The notes beneath the pieces were generated by a model. That model was given only the letters and a program-made list of their open reading frames with translations. It was not told the origin of the DNA and searched no databases. DNA of 49,572 nt from a virus, in IMG/VR virus record IMGVR_UViG_3300009285_002054, positions 1-49,572 of that record. The stretch is one strand, 5' to 3'. Shown in pieces: positions 3,720-49,572 of the stretch (position 1 is the stretch's first letter; each line of letters opens with the position of its first letter). Both the position numbers and the translations under genes were made by a program.

Positions 3720-3769
3720 AATTAAAATAAGAGGAATATCCTATTAACAAAACCAGTAGGATATCCTCT
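3720..3769 (-). terminator. Rho-independent-type terminator after ssb
   Basis: An imperfect inverted repeat (AGAGGATATCCTACT read on the minus strand, pairing with the copy at 3730-3745) forms a 14-15 bp stem. A T-rich run, TTATTTTAATTTTT, follows on the minus strand. It lies about 20 bases beyond the ssb stop. It may partly terminate transcription, setting high SSB expression relative to the downstream recombination genes. Confidence 0.6.
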
Positions 3770-3790
3770 CATGGACATAGAATCTATTAG

Positions 3791-4651
3791 TTACTCCTTA
3801 CTACGCTCTTTCTTAAGACGCTCAATACGCTCCTTAATAGTTTCCTTTACTTCCTTAGGCTTTTCTTTTTTAACTTCAGCTTTAGAATTTTCATTCTTAG
3901 GAGCATCATCCACTACTTCAGCAGGCTCTTCCGAAGATCCTAGACTTTCCTCTTCCGGTTCAATGTTATCATCCATACCAAATAGCTGCTTCTTTAATTC
4001 CTCTTCAGTTGGAACAAGAAGAACATCCTCAAAATCAGGAACACCATCAAGCCATTCATCCGGAATAACAGAAGATTTTGCCAACTTAAATCCTGAATAT
4101 TTAGTATTAGTTGCTTTCATTCCTTCTCTATTAAATTCAATATCGCATCCTTGCTGTTGATCGGAAACATCAATGGTTGCTTTAGTTCTACGATCACGAG
4201 AAAGTTTAATAGTTTCATCCTTAATCTGAGATGGAGAGTCAAACCAATGTAACCCAAGTGCTGCACTCTTATCGTTTGTAACATCATAAATAAAGAATAA
4301 ATATCGTAAAGAAGCTCTAAGCTCTTTAATTCTTGGATCATCCTGATTCTTTCTACGAAGACCTTCTACGTATTCACAAATAGGACATTTCTTACCAACA
4401 GTCTTAAGACAAAGATAAGTATTTCCATCAGGTCCAATATTACTATGCTTATGAGCCTCCAAACCATAAAAAGCACCTTTAATAGACTTTGGTGTTGGAA
4501 TAATACGAATAAAGTTATCACCTTCCTTAGACTTATACTTCTTAATCCCAAGACGCTCAAGAACGTCAGTATCAACCCACTCAAATCTCCTAGTCTTTCC
4601 ACGTTCACTAGACTTCTTAAATTCATTATCAAGAGCATTCATATCCGCCAT
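3791..4651 (-). CDS. ssDNA-binding protein, T4 gp32-like, 286 aa
   Basis: Coats ssDNA at the fork and in recombination. The start is ATG 4651 with GGAGGAA 6 bases upstream; a longer reading from TTG 4666 would include that RBS and is less likely. An N-terminal basic segment is followed by an OB-like core carrying a gp32-style zinc site: His67/His69, Cys81, Cys89 and Cys92 (KHSN..LCL..CPICEY). The C-terminal quarter is very acidic (EPEEESL, SSEEPAEVVDDAP) and then ends in a lysine/arginine-rich tail. The acidic tail is typical of gp32-like SSBs; the final basic segment is less usual. It is followed by a terminator. Confidence 0.85.
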   Translation of the reverse strand: MADMNALDNEFKKSSERGKTRRFEWVDTDVLERLGIKKYKSKEGDNFIRIIPTPKSIKGAFYGLEAHKHSNIGPDGNTYLCLKTVGKKCPICEYVEGLRRKNQDDPRIKELRASLRYLFFIYDVTNDKSAALGLHWFDSPSQIKDETIKLSRDRRTKATIDVSDQQQGCDIEFNREGMKATNTKYSGFKLAKSSVIPDEWLDGVPDFEDVLLVPTEEELKKQLFGMDDNIEPEEESLGSSEEPAEVVDDAPKNENSKAEVKKEKPKEVKETIKERIERLKKERSKE

Positions 4652-4669: not shown

Positions 4670-5644
4670 TTATAAACACGCTTTTGCAACCATCATACAT
4701 AGTTGCGATTTACCACCATAAAAGGTATTAACTGAAAATATTTCCATTAAATTTTTAATATCTCTACAATCATCAATCTTATTTTTAGCAGCAAATGACG
4801 ACATTTTTCCAGCTAAAATTGTCATTAAATATTTTCTTATCTTCTCTGAATCTTCATTTACTTTATCAAATGTCTCAATTATTTTACTAAAGCTTTTAAT
4901 TCTTAACTCCGGTCCTTGAATTAAAAGTTTACATAAATCTTGAATTGTATTTTCATTATCAGTAGACATTGATAAAATTTCAATTGCTTCTTCAATGGTA
5001 AGATCAATTACTTTTTCAAGTAATACTAGTGCTGTTCTTGGGGATCCATCGGAAACAGAAGCAATACCTGCCATTAAATCTTGTGGTGTTGTTTGAACCC
5101 CACCAATAATACCAGTTGGTAAAACAATTGAATGTGTGATACATACATGATCAAGAAGTGTTTCCAATTGTTTTATCCCGATTTTACATACTTCATATTC
5201 AGTACAACGATTTCTAATAGTAGGAATTAAGGATTTAGGCTCAGTAGTACAGAATATAAAATAATAATCCTCTTTAATATCTTCAAGAACCTTTAATAAT
5301 GCTTCTTGTGCAGACGAAGTTAATTCATGACATTCATCAAAAATAAAACATTTTGGGTCTGTTTCAAATGTTAAATCCTGCATTAAACCGCTAATTTCTC
5401 TTGTTGTTTCAATTCCACGAGTATTAGCGGCATTTAATTCAAATACATTCTTTCCTTCACATCCAAGTTGATCAGCAAGAATTCTAGCCAATGTAGTTTT
5501 CCCACATCCAGTTGGTCCAGAAAATAAGAAAACGTGTGGTCTATCCTTAGATTTTCTACATAAAACTTTCTTTAATGCTGATACTGTAGTTTTATTACCA
5601 ACCACATTATCAAAAATTGTTGGTCTAGCTTCTTGATATAACAT
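4670..5644 (-). CDS. Clamp loader AAA+ ATPase (T4 gp44 / DnaX-like), 324 aa
   Basis: Loads the sliding clamp onto primed DNA. It has a Walker A GPTGCGKTT at 43-51, Walker B FIFDECHE (Asp103, Glu104), sensor 1 FIFCTTEP at 129-136, and the SRC-like arginine-finger segment RNRC at 144-147. The start MLYQEARPTIFDNVVG matches the usual N-terminus of DnaX/RFC-type subunits. C-terminal helices follow; no separate small subunit gene is evident next door. Its neighbours (SSB, polymerase, clamp) fit a replisome cluster. Confidence 0.9.
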   Translation of the reverse strand: MLYQEARPTIFDNVVGNKTTVSALKKVLCRKSKDRPHVFLFSGPTGCGKTTLARILADQLGCEGKNVFELNAANTRGIETTREISGLMQDLTFETDPKCFIFDECHELTSSAQEALLKVLEDIKEDYYFIFCTTEPKSLIPTIRNRCTEYEVCKIGIKQLETLLDHVCITHSIVLPTGIIGGVQTTPQDLMAGIASVSDGSPRTALVLLEKVIDLTIEEAIEILSMSTDNENTIQDLCKLLIQGPELRIKSFSKIIETFDKVNEDSEKIRKYLMTILAGKMSSFAAKNKIDDCRDIKNLMEIFSVNTFYGGKSQLCMMVAKACL

Positions 5645-6397: not shown

Positions 6398-9300
6398 CTA
6401 TAATTTTAACGGTTCTAATGAATACCAATCTTTACCAATTTCCCATTCAATATTAGATTTAACACCTTCCTGCCATTTAAATCTATTAGATTTAAAAATT
6501 TCATCTGAAAAACTAACTAATTCTTCAACTTCATCAGGAACAGCATCAAATGTAGCACTATCATGAATTTCAATACAAAGTCTCGACTTTAATTTACGTT
6601 TAATAATTTCTTCATCAATTTTACTTAATGCATCAAGAAACAAATGAAAACTAGAATTATGTACAATATATCCATCACACATAAACTTTTGCTCTGGACA
6701 ATTAATAACATCATACATTTCCTCTGTATCATTAAAAACATTAATAGATTTTACGGTTTCTGTATTATATCCTTTCAAATTTTTATATGTTAGTTGTGTT
6801 GATACTTTATCCTGTTTATCTTTATTAATGAATCCAATTTTCTCAAGGAAGGTATAATTATGTCTTCTTCTTATCCATAATTTAGTTAATTTATCATACC
6901 TATGAAGTCTTGTTTGTATACCAAAAAGGATAAATGCCTGTTGTAAATCCTCTGGAACAGTTGAATTTGAATATTTTTTACCAAATGTTATATTTATATT
7001 TGATTTCCCATCTCTTTTATCAACTGATACTCCACCATCACCATCAGTATATCCACTTAGAAATCCTCTTAACAAATCAGAAGAACTAAATATATAATCA
7101 TCAATTCTATCACGAAGACACAATAGTCTAATCTGTTCGGTAAGAGTTTTACTATGTATCGTTAAATTAAACATTGGTTTTCTGTTTTCTTTATCCCTAT
7201 TAACATGTTTAATAATATATTTCCAGCCACATTTATCAAATATTCTAGTTATAATTGGAAGAATAGATTCTTCATGTTCAGCCACAAACCATGTTAATTT
7301 GGGTTTGGTTTCTGGAACATGTCCATCGGAAGCTAATCTACCAAGAATTAATCCACGATCAAACTTACTGTTTATTTGTTCCAGTGAATATAAATGTTTT
7401 GCCCTTCTATGGGTAATACTAGAAACAACTTTAATATTAGGTAATTTTTTATTGGAATCCCACAAATTACACGAATTAGATATAAGAATTCTTTCAACCT
7501 TTACAAATTCAGAAGCTTTCTTCCATTTAGTATTTCCATTAATTGCATTAATTGTCATAAATTTATGATCCGGTGATGTAATAATACTTTGACCGTTCAT
7601 TAATGTTATAATTTGCCTCTGTTTTAATCCACTTGAAACTACATCAACCAACACAAAATTATCTCCATTCCAAACATGTCTTTTTCCAACACAGTCTTTT
7701 ATTGATTTATAACCATCTTCCTTAGTTAATATTTTACAATTACCATTTAAACAGCCTTGAATAGGATTATTATACAAATCATAAACACTAAGAATTCCAG
7801 GACGTTTAAATCCGGTTAATCCACGGAAGTATCCATGTTCATTATAAAATTTAACTATATTTTTTTGCCATTTATAAATATCAATATATTCGGCAAAAAA
7901 TTCATCCTGTGTTTTTTCTATGTGTTTTTTAGTTATTCCATCATTAATAAAAGATTCATATTTAGCTATTGCATTTGGTTTTGAGCCGTAAATTGAAGCA
8001 AACACAAAACCATTTTTACCACCATATCTTTGATCTTTTGTTACTTCATCTACTGATATTTGATATAATCTAGCTGTCCATCTTTTATGCGGATCAATTC
8101 CTTCATTTAATTGTCTAATTAATTCTTTATCCCTGGAAGACATGGCATTAATACTAAGTTCCAAACCACTATAATCACCTTCTAGAAATACATTTCCTGG
8201 ACTTGATTCAACAATCCTCCTAAATGTCATCATCTCCTTATCATGTTTAAATACAGCCTGAATTGGAGGATTATCAGCAGAAGATCTATATGTTGGAACT
8301 ACATTTAAATTATAATTAGAATGAATTTTCCCATCAGGAAATCTGCATTTTTCATATAAATCTAATTTTGTAATAATTCCAGATGATCCTGCTATTTTTC
8401 TATATCTAAATACTTTATCAATAAATTCTTTTGCATCTTTATTTTTAATATGTCCATAAGATTCTTGAAGAGATTCAGCACTAGTTGAATTTTTTCCTCC
8501 ACCGGTTTTTATAAAACATGGAACTTTACACTTATCAAATAAAATTGATCCTATTTGTGCTGTTGCATTAATATTAAATATCTTTCCGGAATCAATTTCA
8601 TATTCTTTTACTATTTTTAATTCTGATAATTCTTTAATTATTCTTTCAGCTTCTTCTTTATATTTGATTTTAAGGGAATTCAATTCATTTATATTAATAC
8701 AAACACCAGTTTGCTTCATTCTTGCAAGAACAACAGCATTTTTATTCCAAAATTTTGAAAAATCTAATAATTTTTGATCTTCCTTTAAAATTTCCAATTG
8801 ATTATAATATTGTGCTAAGGTATATCTTGAATCATAACAAGCATATTCAGAATATTCATTTATATTAAGTTTTCCCATTTTAGACTTATCACCAATATCA
8901 TATTCATGGCCATAAGCCCTATAGACTTGAAATTTAAGTCCAGTAGTCCCCATACTACAATTGATGACATGCTCAGTAATCATTGTATCATGAATAAAAT
9001 TAACTATCTCTACACCAAATACCCCATGTGTCCAACACCATTCCATATTTAAATTTTGAATAACCTTTGGTGCAGAACTTGTTATAAAATCCGTAAATGC
9101 CTTTTTAACTTCTTCAAGCCTATTACCATATGGACTTTTTTGTGTTATTGGATCAATATAATCAATTGGAATACATGTTCCAAAATTAATATCATTTGAT
9201 AATTGTGCAGTTAATATTCTTGAATCTTTATCATATGGATTTAAATTCTGTGTTTCATAATCAAGTGCAACAGGTTTAATAGATTTAGACATTTCATTAA

Positions 9301-10183: not shown

Positions 10184-11266
10184 CTAATTTATTTTACTAA
10201 TAAGTATTAAACACTCTAAATAACCATTAGCTATCTTTATCAATCCATCCTTGGTATAAATTTGGATTCCATTTCCAACTAAATTCAAATTCAAATATGA
10301 AGCATCTAAAGCGAAGAAGAATTCTTCTCCAGTATTTTCTATACTAACATTTTCATCTATTACACATTCATTTGAAAAAATAGTTTTTAAAGTCATATTG
10401 CCTTTATTAATATTAAAAATGGTTCCTTTAATTTTACCTAGTCCGCTTGTATTTTCAGCATTAGAGGCATCATTTATAGATTTATGACGATTTATTATAT
10501 CAGAAAGATTTTCACATTTAATTATAAAACTTGGTCCATCATTATTGAAATATTTACTTAAATCCTGAATATTCTTATTAATTAATACAGAAGTAAACGT
10601 CATTCCGGATTTTGTCTTTAACTGAATAATACTTCTATCATCATTAGTATAAATTTCTTCAACATCAACTTTATATTTCCATAGTATATCAACAAACTTT
10701 ACTGGAATTGAAAATCCAATTTTCTTATCTTTTGTAATTTCTGAATTTAACTTATGTCTCATTATCCTAAACGTATCGGATGAATAACAATAACCGCCAA
10801 CAGGATCTACTATTACACCACAAATAGATGAAGATGCTCCAACGAATTTATTTTTGATTATTCCAGAACATTCTTTAACAGCAACAATGAACTCGTAATT
10901 ATTGCCATGATAAATATCAACATCACAGGTTAAATCAGCAGTGGACTTATCCCTTTCATCAACAATTAAGAATGTAGCACTTATATCACCAGCTTTAACC
11001 TTTACTTTATCTCTTATAATATCAATATCAATTTCTTCAATATTAACGGAATTAATAAAACTTGCAAATTTATCAAGTTTTATAGCCGCTTTAATGTCCG
11101 TATCTAATTTACATTCAACTTTCAAGCTACCATTATTTGTGTATACAATATTCTTATTAAATATTACACACTGGGACAAAACACCCGACACAATTGGTCT
11201 TGCACTCTTTGTTGAATACTCAATAGCTTCCAAACATCGTATTAATTTTTCTCTATTTACTTTCAT
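10184..11266 (-). CDS. Putative sliding clamp (beta/DnaN-like), 360 aa
   Basis: Probable DNA polymerase processivity clamp. The length (360) is close to bacterial DnaN (about 366). The start MKVNREKLIRCLEAIEYSTK resembles the DnaN first helix, SSDTFRIMRHKL resembles the conserved (A/S)TDGxRL segment, and the C-terminal strand ending LECLILISKI resembles the terminal DnaN strand. No catalytic motif is present. It sits between primase and polymerase genes in the same operon, where a clamp is expected, and the clamp loader is nearby. Similarity is pattern-level only. Confidence 0.6.
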   Translation of the reverse strand: MKVNREKLIRCLEAIEYSTKSARPIVSGVLSQCVIFNKNIVYTNNGSLKVECKLDTDIKAAIKLDKFASFINSVNIEEIDIDIIRDKVKVKAGDISATFLIVDERDKSTADLTCDVDIYHGNNYEFIVAVKECSGIIKNKFVGASSSICGVIVDPVGGYCYSSDTFRIMRHKLNSEITKDKKIGFSIPVKFVDILWKYKVDVEEIYTNDDRSIIQLKTKSGMTFTSVLINKNIQDLSKYFNNDGPSFIIKCENLSDIINRHKSINDASNAENTSGLGKIKGTIFNINKGNMTLKTIFSNECVIDENVSIENTGEEFFFALDASYLNLNLVGNGIQIYTKDGLIKIANGYLECLILISKIN

Positions 11267-15755: not shown

Positions 15756-16425
15756 ATGTCCTCTTAACTAAACAAAACATAAATCCAATACAAAGAATTA
15801 ATATTGTGGCTGGTTCAGGTACATTAACCGCAATATAATCTTGGAAGTTTCCTGAGGAAAGGGCCATGATTTTGGAATTACGAAAGGGATATTCATCACC
15901 TTCCAATCCACTAAGCCACTCATTTGCTAATTTATAATTAATACCCTTACAAGCAAACCCAGACTTTTCATAAGAACCAACCTTAGAAACATTATACAAA
16001 GAAGGATCTTTATTATAATCTTCGTAAATTAATTCCCATACCGCACACTGAAAAGCTGCAGCTTCCTCACTTTCTTTAATATTCCATTTTGGATTATAAA
16101 ACTTTTGATATAATTCTTCAACATACCAACTCTTAAGAAGTCCCATTGGATCACCAGGAGTTGGAACTTTTGATAGCTTAACTACATCATATTTTTGTGG
16201 AGAATAAGAGACCCATTGACCCAAATCAACACAAGTTCCGGTAACCTTCTTTTCATCAACTATAAGATTATAAACTCCAGCATAAGCACTTTCCCAATTA
16301 TGACCACCACTATAAATTTGAACAATCTTTCCAGTATTAATACTATCAAATTGAACAATGGCAGTATTAGCCGATGCTAACTGACCAACAAATACAAAAA
16401 TTAAAATTGAAGTCCAAATCTTCAT
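15742..16425 (-). CDS. Exported PEP-CTERM protein with thioester-like domain, 227 aa
   Basis: Probable cell-surface protein made for the host sorting machinery. Residues 1-19 are a signal peptide (MKIWTSILIFVFVGQLASA). The C-terminus has VPEPA (202-206), a hydrophobic helix (207-220) and a basic tail KRTYGRK, the layout of a PEP-CTERM signal recognised by exosortase in some Gram-negative and PVC bacteria. Between them, TCVDLGQW (Cys65) and AAAFQCAVWELIYE (Gln126) resemble the Cys and Gln motifs of thioester-forming surface domains. It is embedded in the replication operon. The sorting signal is clear; the thioester is inference. It could modify the infected cell surface. Confidence 0.8.
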   Translation of the reverse strand: MKIWTSILIFVFVGQLASANTAIVQFDSINTGKIVQIYSGGHNWESAYAGVYNLIVDEKKVTGTCVDLGQWVSYSPQKYDVVKLSKVPTPGDPMGLLKSWYVEELYQKFYNPKWNIKESEEAAAFQCAVWELIYEDYNKDPSLYNVSKVGSYEKSGFACKGINYKLANEWLSGLEGDEYPFRNSKIMALSSGNFQDYIAVNVPEPATILILCIGFMFCLVKRTYGRK

Positions 16426-16433
16426 TTGTTCTC

Positions 16434-16724
16434 CTATTCAAGAATAAAATTAGGACCGTTTTGAACGTATCTAGCAGATAAAAGAGCAGCTTTCATACGA
16501 TCTCTTCCAACGGAATTCATAGTAACAAGCTGAACCTTCTTTGGAAGTCTTGCTTCCTTCAATGCCCACATTATAAGATCATATCCAGTTGTCTCCGATC
16601 CTAGATCATGATCCATCATAACACAATTCCAATGATGGTTACCAAGTAACATCATTCCAGCTTCAGCGGTTCTGGCAATTACATCAACGTTGAAGCTACG
16701 CTCGTCATCAATTAAAAGCCACAT
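16434..16724 (-). CDS. Receiver-like protein, cyclic-phosphate-processing (cREC) type, 96 aa
   Basis: Compact single-domain protein starting MWLLIDDERS with the acidic pair Asp6-Asp7 and an internal MDHDLGSETTGYDL (Asp38, His39, Asp40), then a VTMNSVGRDRM segment. This pattern (LDDER ... DHDLG ... tGYD ... sxNpvGrxxM) matches the receiver-fold family proposed to process cyclic phosphates, found in many phages. It lacks the usual response-regulator Asp/Lys layout. A link with the RNA ligase at 27838 is possible. Family moderately sure; reaction not established. Confidence 0.6.
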   Translation of the reverse strand: MWLLIDDERSFNVDVIARTAEAGMMLLGNHHWNCVMMDHDLGSETTGYDLIMWALKEARLPKKVQLVTMNSVGRDRMKAALLSARYVQNGPNFILE

Positions 16725-18002: not shown

Positions 18003-18161
18003 TTAAAGTGAAAGAAACAGTTTCGTGAGAATGGGATGATTCTGCTCCCAATCATAGGTCTTTGAACAGTCATAGAGTCCAGGAATTGGACGACCAAGAC
18101 AAGAACTACGACAACAACTACAGGAATGACTTTTCAAAAACCACTTCTTCAAACGATTCAT
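18003..18161 (-). CDS. Small cysteine-rich protein, 52 aa
   Basis: Starts at ATG 18161 with AAGGGG 6 bases upstream. It is strongly basic at the N-terminus (MNRLKKWFLKS) and then has a dense cysteine cluster (SCSCCRSSC), which could bind a metal. No family recognised. Confidence 0.5.
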   Translation of the reverse strand: MNRLKKWFLKSHSCSCCRSSCLGRPIPGLYDCSKTYDWEQNHPILTKLFLSL

Positions 18162-18173
18162 CTGAACCCCTTC

Positions 18174-18368: not shown

Positions 18369-18387
18369 CTTTATCCTTTCAATTAAT

Positions 18388-18424
18388 TTTCATGACCGTG
18401 AGAATAAAATTTAAAGTCCGATAA
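18388..18424 (-). repeat. Interspersed repeat, short copy
   Basis: Read on the minus strand: TTATCGGACTTT, about 8 bases of spacer, then TTCTCACGGTCATGAAA. The same two-box unit recurs at 18970-19006, 19020-19056, 20266-20300 and 32868-32908. It covers the stop of the 134-aa gene and the leader of the next one. Confidence 0.75.
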
Positions 18425-18815
18425 CCTTTGAAATTATTTCATCAAGTTCCAAATGTCGTTGATAATCAGCATCATTAATTTCTTCTTCAACAATATCAAT
18501 GATGCTGATAACATATTTGATCACTGACTCTTCTGGAAATCTGATGAAATTTGAAGCACATCTTGCCGACCAAGCCTCAGATGATGCTGGTCTTCGTCTT
18601 GAAGCAAATCCACACAAACACGCTTCATCCGCAATCATTGTTGCCAATTCAACTGACCTGTCTTTGTTGGAAATCCAATTGTTTGCCCAATCAGCAAAAG
18701 AATGATCAACAGAACTTTTGTTAATTTCTAATGCTACAAGAATTCCGATTGATACTTGTTTCTTTTTTGACATTTCAGCAATTTCACTTTTTTGGTTTTT
18801 AAACGTCTTCTTCAT
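18411..18815 (-). CDS. Hypothetical protein, 134 aa, first gene of leftward operon
   Basis: First gene after the strong leftward promoter. ATG 18815 is preceded by TTGAAAGGATAAAACG. The N-terminus is basic (MKKTFKNQKSE, MSKKKQ), and the core contains ADWANNWISNKDRS and a helical acidic C-terminus. The last codons (VIGL and stop) are formed by the repeat box TTATCGGACTTTAA, so the interspersed element supplies the gene end. As the first early gene it could be a host-takeover or regulatory protein; no domain supports a specific role. Confidence 0.55.
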   Translation of the reverse strand: MKKTFKNQKSEIAEMSKKKQVSIGILVALEINKSSVDHSFADWANNWISNKDRSVELATMIADEACLCGFASRRRPASSEAWSARCASNFIRFPEESVIKYVISIIDIVEEEINDADYQRHLELDEIISKVIGL

Positions 18816-18854
18816 CGTTTTATCCTTTCAATTGAGGATCATTCCTCTAAATAA

Positions 18855-18883
18855 AGTATAACACATGAGAAGTATTTTGTCAA
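18855..18883 (-). promoter_or_regulatory. Strong sigma70-type leftward promoter
   Basis: On the minus strand: TTGACA (18883-18878), a 17-base spacer, then TATACT (18860-18855). It lies about 40 bases upstream of the first gene of the leftward operon and is nearly identical, with its flanks, to the rightward promoter at 20389-20417. The -35 is perfect consensus, so host sigma factor use early in infection is likely. Confidence 0.85.
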
Positions 18884-19056
18884 GTCCAGATTTTACAAAA
18901 GAAGCTTTCCTGATATATTTTGAATATGTAGTTTGTAACGTTTGTAGTTGTTATAATATTATATTTAACTTTCATGACCGTGAGAATAATATTGAAAGTC
19001 CGATAATATTTAATATTGTTCTCACAGCCTTGAGACGTATATCTAAAGTCCGATAA
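18884..19056 (-). repeat. Long copy of interspersed repeat upstream of leftward promoter
   Basis: Read on the minus strand this holds two TTATCGGACTTT boxes (19056-19045 and 19006-18995), each followed by a palindrome of the TTCTCA/TGAGAA type, then a stretch similar to ACTACAAACGTT..ACTACATAT and TTTTGTAAAAT leading into the promoter. The same order occurs at 20266-20394 on the plus strand. The palindromes look like operator sites for a dimeric regulator; that is inference. Confidence 0.75.
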
Positions 19057-19109
19057 TGTTTAAAATTGATATATCAAATGTATAATAACCCTATCTGGAG
19101 GTTTTAGAC

Positions 19110-19748
19110 ATGCAATTATCTGAAGAGGATATTCAAGTTATATTTGATTTTTGGAATGAATATAAAGGAAAAGGTAATTGGAAAAGTCATCTTAAGCTTT
19201 CTGATGATATGCTTCTTGCTATAGTTAATTCTCTTAAGAAGTATAATGTTGAAGAAATATGTTCAGCTATTGATAATTATGCAACAATTTTATTAAATGA
19301 TGAATATTGGTGGACACATGCATGGTCATTAACGACTTTTCTTACGGTAAAAGCTGGAACTTATAAGGATGCTCCACTTAAATGGTTAAGATTTCATCCT
19401 GACAACTTTATAATTGATAACTATAAAACTTCCAAAGGAGCACCTGAGGATGTAAGAGAGGTAGAACCTGAGTTTGTTGATGATATAATTAGGAGATTTG
19501 GACGACTTATTGGAAATAAAGAATACGTTCCTGATAGAATGGGAAGAATCCATTTTGCTAGTTGTGCCAATAAATTAAGAAAATATACAAGTAAATATGG
19601 GAAAAAAGAAGTTGTTCAAACATTTTTTGATTTTTTGGAATCGGAATTTATTGATAAACAAAAAATTATTTATCCGGCTAATTTAAATAATAAAACCACA
19701 GTTGACGTTATGTTTCCACAATACTTAAAGGATATTGGAGTAATTTAA
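19110..19748 (+). CDS. Hypothetical protein, possible replication initiator-like, 212 aa
   Basis: Starts at ATG 19110 with GGAGG 9 bases upstream. The first half (IFDFWNEYKG, LKKYNVEEICSAIDNYATIL, YWWTHAWSLTTFL) resembles the C-terminal domain of phage replication-initiation or helicase-loading proteins, in which 'yW.h.W.L..FL' is recurrent. The second half (EPEFVDDIIRRFGRLIG) is helical. It lies between two inverted copies of the repeat/promoter element and is on the strand opposite to the replication operon. The similarity is weak. Confidence 0.6.
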   Translation: MQLSEEDIQVIFDFWNEYKGKGNWKSHLKLSDDMLLAIVNSLKKYNVEEICSAIDNYATILLNDEYWWTHAWSLTTFLTVKAGTYKDAPLKWLRFHPDNFIIDNYKTSKGAPEDVREVEPEFVDDIIRRFGRLIGNKEYVPDRMGRIHFASCANKLRKYTSKYGKKEVVQTFFDFLESEFIDKQKIIYPANLNNKTTVDVMFPQYLKDIGVI

Positions 19749-20222
19749 ATGAAGTTTGTGTTTGGAAAAGCACATAAACTAGTTGAAGCTTCCTGGTATC
19801 TTTTAATTGATGATACTTCAAGAGAGCTAGCTGGAATATTAATACAAAGCTCCTTTGAAAGAATAATATCAGATCCATATATTAAAGCTGAAAGTGCCTC
19901 AACATATTGTGGTATTATGATGATTGCAAGTTCAAAGGTACAAATATCACTGGATCTTGGAGAACGAGATGGTTGGTATATAAATATAAATGGTGGATGT
20001 TGCCAGAATTTGTTCTCAATAGAAAAAGAAATTGAACTTGATCATTTTCCTGAGAAGGAAGATAGGATCAAGGTTTCAAAATGGCCTAATGGTAAACATT
20101 GGTATGCAACAGTAGACTTTGAATCCGTAACTGATGAATTAGGACGCAACAAATGGAATACACAAGGAGAAGCTTTTAAAGAGGCTGAGAAGTTTTTTAA
20201 GAATAAATCGGTTAAAAAATAG
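19749..20222 (+). CDS. Hypothetical protein, 157 aa
   Basis: Begins directly after the TAA of the previous gene, so the two form a cassette. The protein is alpha/beta with a GERDGWYININGGCC segment, a WPNGKHWYATVDFES segment and a basic C-terminus. No family recognised. It ends 44 bases before the next repeat copy. Confidence 0.6.
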   Translation: MKFVFGKAHKLVEASWYLLIDDTSRELAGILIQSSFERIISDPYIKAESASTYCGIMMIASSKVQISLDLGERDGWYININGGCCQNLFSIEKEIELDHFPEKEDRIKVSKWPNGKHWYATVDFESVTDELGRNKWNTQGEAFKEAEKFFKNKSVKK

Positions 20223-20265
20223 AGTTTCATTAATTTTTCTTGATTGTATGAACACTACTTTAAGA

Positions 20266-20388
20266 TTATCGGACTTTAAATATACGTCTCAAGGTCGTGG
20301 GAACAATATTAAACATTAAAGATGTTACAAACGTTAAGAACTACATATCTTGAATATTAAAGAAATCACTTCTTTGTAAAATTTGGAC
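20266..20388 (+). repeat. Long copy of interspersed repeat upstream of rightward promoter
   Basis: TTATCGGACTTT at 20266-20277, the palindrome-like GTCTCAAGGTCGTGGGAAC, then ACAAACGTTAAGAACTACAT, a TTGAATATTAAAGAAATCACT stretch (given in part) and TTTGTAAAAT, leading into the promoter. It is an inverted partner of the copy at 18884-19056, and most of it recurs at 32868-32982. Confidence 0.75.
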
Positions 20389-20417
20389 TTGACAAAATAC
20401 TTTTTATATGTTATACT
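20389..20417 (+). promoter_or_regulatory. Strong sigma70-type rightward promoter
   Basis: TTGACA (20389-20394), a 17-base spacer, TATACT (20412-20417). The bases around it, including GGAC before and TTATTTAGAGG after, match the leftward promoter. No protein gene starts for about 800 bases downstream on this strand, so its immediate product is an RNA. Confidence 0.85.
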
Positions 20418-20423
20418 TTATTT

Positions 20424-21060
20424 AGAGGAGTTTGTGATTCATACAAGAACGAGCCATTTTTAAAAATGGGATCTTGATTCTGAATCAAAAGGATTGATGA
20501 TATTTGACTTAACAGTGTTGATGGATGCCACTCCTCAACTGTTAAGTTTAAGCGTCACCTGCTTAGTGGCGAGTTCGACGATGCAAACGCCTGAATTAGG
20601 TAGCTCAATTGGTAGAGCAATTCTAGTGGAAAGTATGTGAGTTCGAATTTCACCCTAATTCTTTTAAGTTCTTTGACAATGATATATGATAGTAGCAAGG
20701 AAGCTTTTGAAGGCGTTATGATAAACAAACCTTTTGTCGCTGTCCTTAGGACTAAAAAAGGTAGTATCTGATTAAAATGATGTAAGGTAAATTCCAGAAA
20801 TCTTCGGAGGATCTCAGGATTGGGTCTGGAATTATCGGTTCGATAATTGGCCTCTCCAATTATTAAGCGAGTCATTAACCCTAACCCCATATAATTCTTT
20901 ATTAGGGAAGAATTATCAGGTACAAGTTAATACTTCATTATATATCTAAATATTAAAAATTTAAAACCTTAATAAGAAATTTATCAGATTATTATTTCTT
21001 ATGGGGTAAAAATACCTTTTATTAAAAAATTAAATAATTATATAATTAAAAGGTCAAAGT
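20424..21060 (+). ncRNA. Candidate large structured phage RNA, about 640 nt
   Basis: No convincing plus-strand ORF is present, but many hairpins are: 20454-20469 (16-base palindrome), 20507-20515 with 20539-20547 (9 bp plus 4 bp), 20729-20735 with 20756-20762 enclosing the palindrome 20742-20752, 20790-20798 with 20825-20833 (9 bp), 20830-20848 (8 bp), 20843-20850 with 20856-20863 (8 bp), 20891-20899 with 20908-20916 (9 bp) and 20972-20980 with 20994-21002 (9 bp). A tRNA-like fold sits at 20594-20661. A strong promoter lies directly upstream. Size, structure and tRNA association recall giant phage RNAs such as GOLLD and ROOL, but I cannot show homology. The ends are estimates. Confidence 0.55.
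20594..20661 (+). tRNA. tRNA-like fold with truncated anticodon arm (tRNA remnant or mimic)
   Basis: The acceptor stem AATTAGG/CCTAATT is perfect (7 bp). TA is followed by a D arm GCTC-AATTGGTA-GAGC (4 bp), and a T arm GTGAG-TTCGAAT-TTCAC (5 bp with one G-U) has the canonical loop. Only 18 bases separate D and T arms where a normal tRNA needs about 22-23, and no 5-bp anticodon stem with U33 can be drawn. It therefore cannot be assigned an anticodon. It could be a decayed tRNA or a deliberate tRNA-like module within the surrounding RNA. Confidence 0.6.
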
Positions 21061-21101
21061 TTAATATTAAATGAAAATTTAAGAAAATGTGGGAAGTAAA
21101 A

Positions 21102-21110
21102 TGGTATAAT
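21102..21110 (+). promoter_or_regulatory. Possible extended -10 promoter element
   Basis: TGGTATAAT fits an extended -10 (TGn-TATAAT), about 115 bases before the next gene. No good -35 is visible at the usual distance. A second TATAAT lies at 21152-21157, also without a -35. Weak evidence. Confidence 0.3.
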
Positions 21111-21227
21111 TATCATTGGTATGTTAATAAGTTAATATTATCCACAGAGGATATAATAAAAATTTATCATATGATAAGGACTTTTATTTGTCAATTAACG
21201 CTATTAATTAAGTGAAAGGTTGTAGTA

Positions 21228-21491
21228 ATGTGTGGTCCAAAGTCAGTTAATAATCAAAATCCGGAAGATGTTGTTAATTACTCAGATGAAGCTTTCAAAG
21301 AAGCCGACGCAATAGTAAAAAGGGTCTTTGATGTTGATCTGGTAGCAAAGCATAATCGAAGGGTCAAAAGCCCTTTCAAGACAAGAAAAATACGTTTTGA
21401 TGTAAAGGGTGAAGATATTGATAAGACAAATCGTTTAAAGAACAGACGTAAAAGTAGGTGTAATAAAGCTAATAAACATAAGGATGATTAA
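21228..21491 (+). CDS. Hypothetical basic protein, 87 aa
   Basis: Starts at ATG 21228 with GAAAGG about 10 bases upstream, as the first protein gene of the rightward operon. It has an acidic N-terminal half and a very basic C-terminal half (TNRLKNRRKSRCNKANKHK), possibly for nucleic-acid binding. The residues MCGPKSVN, though not a known motif, recall small phage virion/ejection components; no function assigned. Confidence 0.5.
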   Translation: MCGPKSVNNQNPEDVVNYSDEAFKEADAIVKRVFDVDLVAKHNRRVKSPFKTRKIRFDVKGEDIDKTNRLKNRRKSRCNKANKHKDD

Positions 21492-32585: not shown

Positions 32586-32865
32586 ATTGATAATTATGTG
32601 GCATAAATTTTTAGGACTTAAGTCATGTAAGAAGTGTGGACGAGTCTTAATTGATGATTCGTGGTATGGTGGAATTTGTCAGATTGGTATTACTTATCCT
32701 AAAGTTTTTGGTCTTTGGATTATTCGTTGGTTTTGGAAGAGGATTAATTGTAAGCGTGGAATGCATCTATGGGATGAAGTAGAAGATGATTTAAATCATT
32801 TTCTTTATTGTGATGCTTGTGGAAAAGAATTATTTATTGATGATTCCGGAAAGTTTAAATTTTAA
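32572..32865 (+). CDS. Zinc-ribbon-like protein, 97 aa
   Basis: Starts at ATG 32572 inside the previous gene end (AAGGA upstream). Contains CKKCGRVL and CDACGKEL, two CxxC knuckles about 50 residues apart with basic, aromatic residues between (RWFWKRINCKRGMHLW). The last codons form part of a 21-base direct repeat. Possibly nucleic-acid binding; no specific family. Confidence 0.55.
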   Translation: MKLIRLIIMWHKFLGLKSCKKCGRVLIDDSWYGGICQIGITYPKVFGLWIIRWFWKRINCKRGMHLWDEVEDDLNHFLYCDACGKELFIDDSGKFKF

Positions 32866-33068
32866 TATTATCGGACTTTCGATTTTATTTTCATGACCGT
32901 GAGAATTAATTAAAATATTATAACCACTACAAACGTTAAGAACTACATATCTTGAATATTAAAGAAATCACTTTTTTGTAAAATATAGTGGTAAAGTAAA
33001 TGGTTCTCCTGCTACAGGAATTGATGAATTTTTAATAAGTTAATAAAAAGTTTAAATTTTAATATTAT
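32851..33068 (+). repeat. Repeat element flanked by 21-bp direct repeats
   Basis: The 21 bases 32851-32871 recur exactly at 33048-33068. Between them lies a copy of the interspersed unit (TTATCGGACTTT, TTTTCATGACCGTGAGAATT, ACAAACGTTAAGAACTACAT, TTTTTTGTAAAAT) that lacks the TTGACA/TATACT promoter of the other long copies. The first repeat covers the end of the 97-aa gene. Looks like insertion or recombination of the element. Confidence 0.75.
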
Positions 33069-37221: not shown

Positions 37222-37296
37222 GCTCCTGTCTTCTAATGGTCCAAGGATTCAGCCCCTTCAAGGCTGAGATAGCGGGTTCGAATCCCCTCAGGAGTA
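37222..37296 (+). tRNA. tRNA-Glu (anticodon TTC), with irregularities
   Basis: Acceptor GCTCCTG/CAGGAGT (one G-U), D arm with weak pairing, anticodon stem CAGCC/GGCTG (5 bp) with loop CCTTCAA. This puts C, not U, at position 33 before anticodon TTC, and the T stem GCGGG/CCCCT has a C-C mismatch. Likely tRNA-Glu reading GAA; the mismatches may mean reduced function. The next gene's Shine-Dalgarno (AGGAG) lies in its acceptor stem. Confidence 0.7.
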
Positions 37297-38081: not shown

Positions 38082-38612
38082 ATGGCTAATGAAAAGAATT
38101 TTAAACTTGGTGCTGCTATTGCGATTAGGTATCAGGCTCCTAATGCTGTTACCGGATTAGCTCCTGTGGCGGAAATTTTTGATGAAACTGGTGCTAAGGA
38201 TTTAGTTAATTTTCCAGATGTTGTATTAACTGAAATTGGGGCTACTGGTCGTTATGTTGGATCATATGTACCAGACGCAGATGGAGAATGGTTAATTCAG
38301 ATTAATGATGGTACTGGTAAAGGTAAAGTTATTATTGCACATTCTTGTGGATCGTGGAATATTCATGAGATTGGTCAAGCAATGGCGAAGGATTCTACTG
38401 TAGCTAAAGATGCTACTGTTGCCAAGGATTCTACTGTAGCTAAAGATGCCACCGTAGCAAAGGATTCTACTGTAGCTAAAGATGCTACTGTTGCTAAAGC
38501 TGCTGATCTTGCTAATTTAGATGGTGATGTTGTTGCAGTAAAGGCTGTTGTTGATAGTATTCAGTCCGATATTGATAGTTTGGAAGTTTCCAGTCCTCCA
38601 ATGGTAGTATAA
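38082..38612 (+). CDS. Virion-associated repeat protein, 176 aa
   Basis: AAGGAG precedes ATG 38082. Residues 1-100 form a beta-rich domain (FKLGAAIAIRYQAPNAVTGL, GRYVGSYVPDADGEWLIQI) similar to the domain at 39382. Residues 102-137 contain three exact 12-residue units (AKDSTVAKDATV), then ANLDGDVVAVKAVVDSIQSD, a coiled-coil-like end. Possibly a fibre or decoration module. Function inferred. Confidence 0.65.
   Translation: MANEKNFKLGAAIAIRYQAPNAVTGLAPVAEIFDETGAKDLVNFPDVVLTEIGATGRYVGSYVPDADGEWLIQINDGTGKGKVIIAHSCGSWNIHEIGQAMAKDSTVAKDATVAKDSTVAKDATVAKDSTVAKDATVAKAADLANLDGDVVAVKAVVDSIQSDIDSLEVSSPPMVV
38385..38492 (+). repeat. Three 36-bp tandem units in virion gene
   Basis: Each unit encodes AKDSTVAKDATV. 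DNA units differ mainly at third codon positions, so the repeat is older than the 51-bp one at 26537. It may form a heptad-like stalk. Confidence 0.9.
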
Positions 38613-49179: not shown

Positions 49180-49572
49180 ATGTCTATTTCTTCTTCACAA
49201 TTTGATTCTTTATTTAAACCTATTTCACAAGAAGAAATTCTTCAAAGAAGACTTTCTAATTGTGTTAGAAATTCTGATGGTACTTATTCTTCTGATGGTG
49301 ATGTTGATTTAACTAAATTACCGGTTAAATTTAAATATGTAAAAGGTAGTTTTTATTGTTATAATAATCAGTTAACTTCTTTAGAAGGTTCTCCACAAGA
49401 AGTTGGCGATAGTTTTTATTGTTCTCATAATCAGTTAACTTCTTTAGAAGGAGCACCACAAGAAGTTGGTGGTGATTTTGACTGTTCTAATAATAAGTTA
49501 ACTTCTTTAGAAGGAGCACCACAAAAAGTTGGTGGTTATTTTGTTTGTTCTAATAATAAGTTAACTTCTTTA
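49180..49572 (+). CDS. Leucine-rich-repeat protein, N-terminal part (partial)
   Basis: Starts ATG 49180 (TTGGA upstream) and runs out of the window. After about 55 residues the sequence becomes 21-residue repeats of the type SLEGAPQEVGGDFDCSNNKL (three complete and a fourth partial), each with a cysteine after an F.C pattern and a conserved NxLTSL. These LRR-like units are known in some phage proteins and may bind host surface structures. Repeat DNA is similar but not identical. Confidence 0.7.
   Translation, partial: MSISSSQFDSLFKPISQEEILQRRLSNCVRNSDGTYSSDGDVDLTKLPVKFKYVKGSFYCYNNQLTSLEGSPQEVGDSFYCSHNQLTSLEGAPQEVGGDFDCSNNKLTSLEGAPQKVGGYFVCSNNKLTSL

Follow-up and report, generated by a model that had tools for sequence, protein, structure and literature searches.

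A candidate lineage-specific structured RNA locus enclosing a tRNA-like element in an AT-rich tailed phage

Described large RNAs and how the locus compares

GOLLD (RF02032) and ROOL (RF03087) are large phage RNAs for which we know of no established function. A tRNA is sometimes contained within a linker of GOLLD, and ROOL, a phage RNA of similar length, is often encoded near tRNA genes (PMC12286853). The locus described here lies in a viral DNA record of 49,572 bp (33% GC), all of which was analyzed and is referred to as the window. Like GOLLD, a phage and prophage RNA, the locus would specify a large multi-domain RNA with a tRNA element inside and, like ROOL, a phage RNA of comparable length. 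Unlike GOLLD, whose 416-position model (including the conserved 3′ region) is unmatched in the window and its relatives, the locus has a tRNA element without a normal anticodon arm and lies outside any tRNA island. The 574-position ROOL model is also unmatched, and the three ordinary tRNA genes of the window (ARAGORN) are 15 kb away. When the locus was compared with Rfam using cmscan, only the tRNA model matched; GOLLD, ROOL, tmRNA and all other families were absent. (A separate search with the ROOL model matched no control genome, and cmscan is the firmer test.) A first-pass annotation of this DNA had proposed a large, ornate phage RNA of the GOLLD or ROOL type, or an unrelated one, and had recommended this Infernal comparison. 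What stands of that proposal is a promoter-linked, non-coding, hairpin-rich region with a tRNA-like element, and the family assignment does not.

In tmRNA (RF00023), the 5′ and 3′ ends form a tRNA-like domain, and the molecule also carries a tag ORF and pseudoknots. The locus likewise combines a tRNA-like part with other structured domains, but here that part is contiguous, has a D stem and lacks CCA. The tmRNA model matched in the window only at 37274, on an ordinary tRNA's T arm, and these matches were rejected. Replication is primed by transcription in the ColE1 RNA II system and at T4 and T7 origins. In common with these, the locus would have a strong promoter, a structured transcript of several hundred nucleotides, an AT-rich stretch behind it and a possible antisense promoter. 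It differs in that a replication start is not evidenced and in its embedded tRNA-like element, a feature that, to our knowledge, has not been described in ColE1 RNA II-type or T4/T7 origins.

Coding-free gap, promoter and hairpins

The locus is carried by an AT-rich tailed phage whose major capsid protein is of the gp23 type; its other products include an S77 prohead protease, a DNA polymerase, a processivity factor and helicases. To assess coding, ORFs of at least 25 aa were scored by a codon model that had been trained on the window itself. The resulting map has genes running leftward across 1–18.8 kb and rightward across 19.1–49.5 kb. Positions 20223–21227 (1,005 nt) are the largest non-coding stretch of the phage, the second largest being 499 nt. 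ORFs of at least 25 aa within it scored between −33 and +0.4, in agreement with the earlier reading that no convincing sense ORF is present. An antisense ORF of 111 aa (20555–20890) was discarded as a gene (codon score −33, no tblastn matches). Downstream, rightward genes on the same strand form an operon starting at 21228. No intrinsic terminator was found after the structured part, between 20945 and 21228; note that terminator-like sites in the 20-kb stretch tested are no more frequent than expected by chance. Elsewhere in the window, tandem repeats with 18-nt and 63-nt units lie within ORFs (38367–38533 and 49282–49572).

Transcription from the promoter at 20389 (Table 1) would start at about 20424–20426 and may occur early. 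A promoter score of 11/12 is not significant alone (four sites in the window versus 4.15 in shuffles). The case for the promoter rests instead on a duplicated 50-nt block, copied on the opposite strand at 18843–18892 with 92% identity, and on three similar promoters in relative G020. The latter, near 11174, 12704 and 14060 (−), are immediately upstream of genes, have GTTATACTTTA..TA in common and are similar in their −10 and initially transcribed sequences. The first-pass call of a strong sigma70-type promoter was retained. Two promoters of the type TATTATAATTTATATAGAAAGG were read by eye in relative G007, near 71600 and 72700 (+). Two convergent promoter-like sites inside the gap, as observed here, occur in 0.25% of shuffles.

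Upstream of the promoter is a repeat with further copies at 18890–19013 (−) and 32861–32984 (+) and partial copies at 18383–18438 and 19004–19063; the repeats are 124–171 nt long and 75–80% alike. The TTATCGGACTTT motif occurs exactly five times in the window, four of these at 18.4–20.3 kb, where 0.29 would be expected even allowing one mismatch. Such an element could be an operator or iteron. Delimited as TTATCGGACTTT plus the dyad TCTCAyGGTCrTGAGAA, the element has five copies (18383–18438, 18965–19020, 19004–19063, 20259–20382 and 32861–32984), two of which form a 171-nt inverted repeat flanking both ORFs of 19110–20222.

Hairpins were counted in 20425–21060 and in 300 dinucleotide shuffles of the same region. 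Ten perfect Watson–Crick stems of at least 7 bp are present, versus 2.6 (sd 1.6) in shuffles, none of which reached ten; seven are at least 8 bp (0.74 expected) and four at least 9 bp (0.2 expected). The many hairpins noted earlier are confirmed, but perfect stems reach 10 bp at most, and the 13 bp originally given requires mismatches. Three of the ten stems are in the AT-rich tail. Fold energies relative to shuffles gave z = −3.25 (plus strand) and −4.05 (minus strand) for the whole region and −2.66 and −4.26, respectively, for the 520-nt core; 31 other 521-nt windows averaged −0.26 (sd 1.1). Most of the excess stability comes from 20425–20593 and 20790–20920. The structured part ends near 20920–20945, beyond which the sequence to 21227 is AT-rich and folds ordinarily (z = −0.9). 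The minus-strand signal equals or exceeds that of the plus strand, and folding with DNA parameters yields z = −4.2; the stems are thus genuine palindromes, which on their own are no sign of an RNA. It is the promoter and the tRNA-like element that indicate the plus strand.

Table 1. Coordinates of features in the window and of aberrant tRNA-like elements in related phages.
Feature	Position	Strand	Basis or remark
Second promoter copy	18854–18883	−	~40 nt upstream of leftward ORF 18411–18815
Upstream regulatory repeat, TTATCGGACTTT motif and dyad TCTCAAGGTCGTGGGA	20259–20388	+	Repeat comparison
Sigma70-type promoter, TTGACA-17-TATACT, extended −10 (TG)	20389–20417	+	Consensus match, repeat
5′ domain	20425–20593	+	Fold z −3.2 (plus), −4.8 (minus); pair probabilities 0.55–1.0
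5′ domain stems	20435–20441/20481–20487; 20454–20459/20464–20469; 20507–20516/20538–20547	+	Stem search, pair probabilities
tRNA-like element	20594–20661	+	Rfam tRNA model, 43.3 bits, E 1.2e-7
Hairpin, 7 bp, ACCTTTT/AAAAGGT	20729–20762	+	Stem search, pair probabilities
3′ domain	20790–20920	+	Stem search, pair probabilities
3′ domain stems	20790–20798/20825–20833 (9 bp); 20843–20850/20856–20863 (8 bp); 20891–20899/20908–20916 (9 bp)	+	
3′ domain alternative stem	20830–20837/20841–20848	+	
AT-rich tail	20921–21110		Base composition
DnaA box TTATCCACA, perfect consensus	21138–21146	+	Sole one in window; 0.88 expected by chance
Convergent promoter-like site, TTGACA-17-TATGAT	21166–21194	−	Antisense direction; no independent support
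Aberrant tRNA-like element, G005	9012–9089 (L023)		
Aberrant tRNA-like element, G007	72364–72447 plus flanks (L034 1477–1589)		
Aberrant tRNA-like element, G009	5158–5273 (L022)		
Aberrant tRNA-like element, G010	16408–16525 (L024)		

The tRNA-like element and searches of related phages

The match to the tRNA model confirms the embedded tRNA-like fold that had been pointed out initially. Its acceptor (7 bp), D (4 bp) and T (5 bp) stems are all fully paired, and its T loop (TTCGAAT) conforms to the consensus. The anticodon arm is stunted, this region being ~5 nt short; the 5-bp stem and 7-nt loop of a functional tRNA are not present, there is no CCA, and ARAGORN did not call the element as a tRNA. 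In BLAST searches mostly the D-arm half was aligned, to phage tRNAs of several kinds, and a parent tRNA is therefore not identifiable. Exact and gapped pattern searches of IMG/VR for the tRNA-like sequence gave no matches. A relaxed pattern recovered elements with a truncated anticodon arm in five unrelated phages; these were rejected as relatives of the locus because only the tRNA-like part is common to them and the window.

Relatives were gathered by profile scans with the helicases and the OB-fold protein, yielding about 40 phage records (mostly fragments) whose replication proteins are mostly 25–50% identical to those of the window. No homologue of the locus was found by blastn among relatives fetched whole, nor in the roughly 40 records using single-sequence covariance models (R2 from the 5′ domain, R1 from the 3′ domain), so that the search of related phage genomes suggested by the first-pass annotation did not extend the locus beyond the window. 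Given the low power of models built from one sequence and the distance of these relatives, this indicates lineage specificity at that distance rather than a lack of function. Searches through the 212-aa neighbor protein and among genome contigs recovered no relatives. A blastn match to Corynebacterium phage Darwin was rejected because it covers only the AT-rich stretch, intergenic there. Long gaps of G014, G023, G009 and G010, when read, contained few long stems and no similar anatomy.

ARAGORN classified 65 of 70 tRNA-model matches in the window and relatives as ordinary. Of the five exceptions, the window, G005, G007, G009 and G010 have one apiece. In every case the acceptor and T arms are retained, and the middle is shortened, enlarged or rearranged. 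Scores against the tRNA model are 43 bits (window), 44 (G005), 52 (G009) and 35 (G010); the G007 element scores 16 bits, and 30 with the tRNA-Sec model, both below cut-offs. The D arm, judged by eye, is Ser-type in G007 and Leu-type in G010, and because these resemble different isoacceptors the elements are considered parallel rather than orthologous. By helicase (about 50% identity), the closest relatives are G005, G007, G010 and G006, a near-twin of G007. No aberrant element was found in the tRNA-rich relatives G001 (27 tRNAs) and G003 (21 tRNAs). That each such phage carries one aberrant element is a lead based on small numbers.

Interpretation and competing explanations

Our preferred, still tentative, reading is that a non-coding RNA gene specific to this lineage spans 20425 to ~20945 and includes a tRNA mimic for processing or stability. 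That a stable, selected RNA is made here, large, structured and outside the known families, is plausible but not proven. Transcription would proceed from the phage's own repeated promoter, probably early, and the transcript would fold as two independent domains flanking the tRNA-like element. With its stunted anticodon arm this element would be unable to decode and would most likely work as a tRNA mimic. It could be recognized by host RNase P on the 5′ side and by a 3′ tRNA endonuclease, by which the flanking domains would be freed or trimmed; these domains might in turn act in trans, with host or phage factors as targets. This reading draws on the size and codon scores of the gap (negative or near zero inside), a 4-fold excess of perfect stems, plus-strand fold z of −2.7 to −3.3, a directional tRNA-like element, a promoter duplicated in the window and resembled before G020 genes, and the single aberrant elements of four relatives, which suggest retention rather than random decay. 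Against it, the lack of a homologue by blastn or covariance models means that there is no covariation, the folding-energy signal is not specific to the plus strand, and no intrinsic terminator follows the structured part.

The chief rival is a serious one, though we judge it rather unlikely: a transcription-activated origin, in which the 20389 promoter would yield a structured pre-primer transcript and an R-loop at 20921–21110 would prime replication; an antisense regulator might be transcribed from 21194, and the upstream repeats would be initiator or repressor sites. The hallmarks of an origin (skew minimum, AT-rich region, iterated sites) are partly present, but their positions do not coincide. 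GC skew changes sign between the gene blocks, with its cumulative minimum at 18864, overlapped by the second promoter copy and 1.5 kb upstream of the 20389 promoter; however, skew tracks transcription direction and flips at the gene divergence, 1.5–2 kb from the AT-rich stretch. The lowest-GC 130 nt of the window (20921–21050, 13% GC) directly follow the structured part. The perfect DnaA box at 21138 fits an origin, but one is expected by chance. Repeated elements with a dyad fit as well, although one copy is 12 kb away in a context that is not origin-like. The convergent promoter-like sites, and hairpins equally strong with DNA parameters and on the minus strand, also agree with an origin, of which a tRNA-like element is no feature. 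Were the origin reading correct, the locus would be a candidate transcription-driven origin outside the model phages. It is also unlikely that the element is a tRNA pseudogene with a partly lost anticodon arm in an unselected, palindrome-rich spacer whose hairpins have no function as RNA. The missing CCA and normal anticodon arm, conservation found nowhere and the three ordinary tRNA genes would suit decay; selective keeping of three fully paired arms would not be expected, and the hairpin excess, a promoter 200 nt upstream and relatives with 21–27 tRNAs that have no such remnants also speak against it. Quite unlikely is a 5′ leader of about 800 nt for the operon at 21228, acting in cis by attenuation or tRNA-like processing. 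The absence of a terminator before the same-strand genes and the mutually exclusive hairpins 20830–20848 and 20843–20863 would allow for this, but promoters of this type elsewhere (window 18854, G020) lie ~30–50 nt before a start codon, which would make such a leader exceptional, and 190 nt of very AT-rich sequence separate structure and gene. A divergent or unrecognized member of GOLLD or ROOL would fit the size, phage origin and inner tRNA-like element, as sometimes found in GOLLD linkers (PMC12286853), but searches with the E limit relaxed to 5 or 10 still gave no match, and this already disfavored reading is very improbable.

If real, the RNA gene would be a new variant of large structured phage RNA. 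A further large phage RNA, unrelated to the others, would point to repeated emergence of such RNAs, and a central tRNA mimic would offer a concrete, testable processing hypothesis. It is doubtful, but conceivable from the five aberrant elements, that the locus represents a new class among the large phage RNAs, built around a tRNA mimic without a working anticodon arm, and that it is part of a wider habit of this clade (window, G005, G007, G009 and G010), each genome having one single-copy tRNA-like RNA with its anticodon domain replaced for a use outside translation.

Other RNAs were seen in these and other phages. In G010, two more degenerate cloverleaf-like intergenic structures lie behind the aberrant element (by eye). 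Related phage L012 contains a Type-P5 twister ribozyme (18110–18163, +), and phage contig L054 a tmRNA gene (10578–10995, +). In unrelated contigs L053 (~3750–3950, −), L052 (~100–280, −) and L055 (~4480–4640, +), a 13–15 bp closing stem encloses a tRNA-like element whose anticodon arm is tiny, together with a second T-arm hairpin (fold z of −5.2 and −3.3 for this set); in L053, a tmRNA-like 5′ end seems, by eye, to come next.
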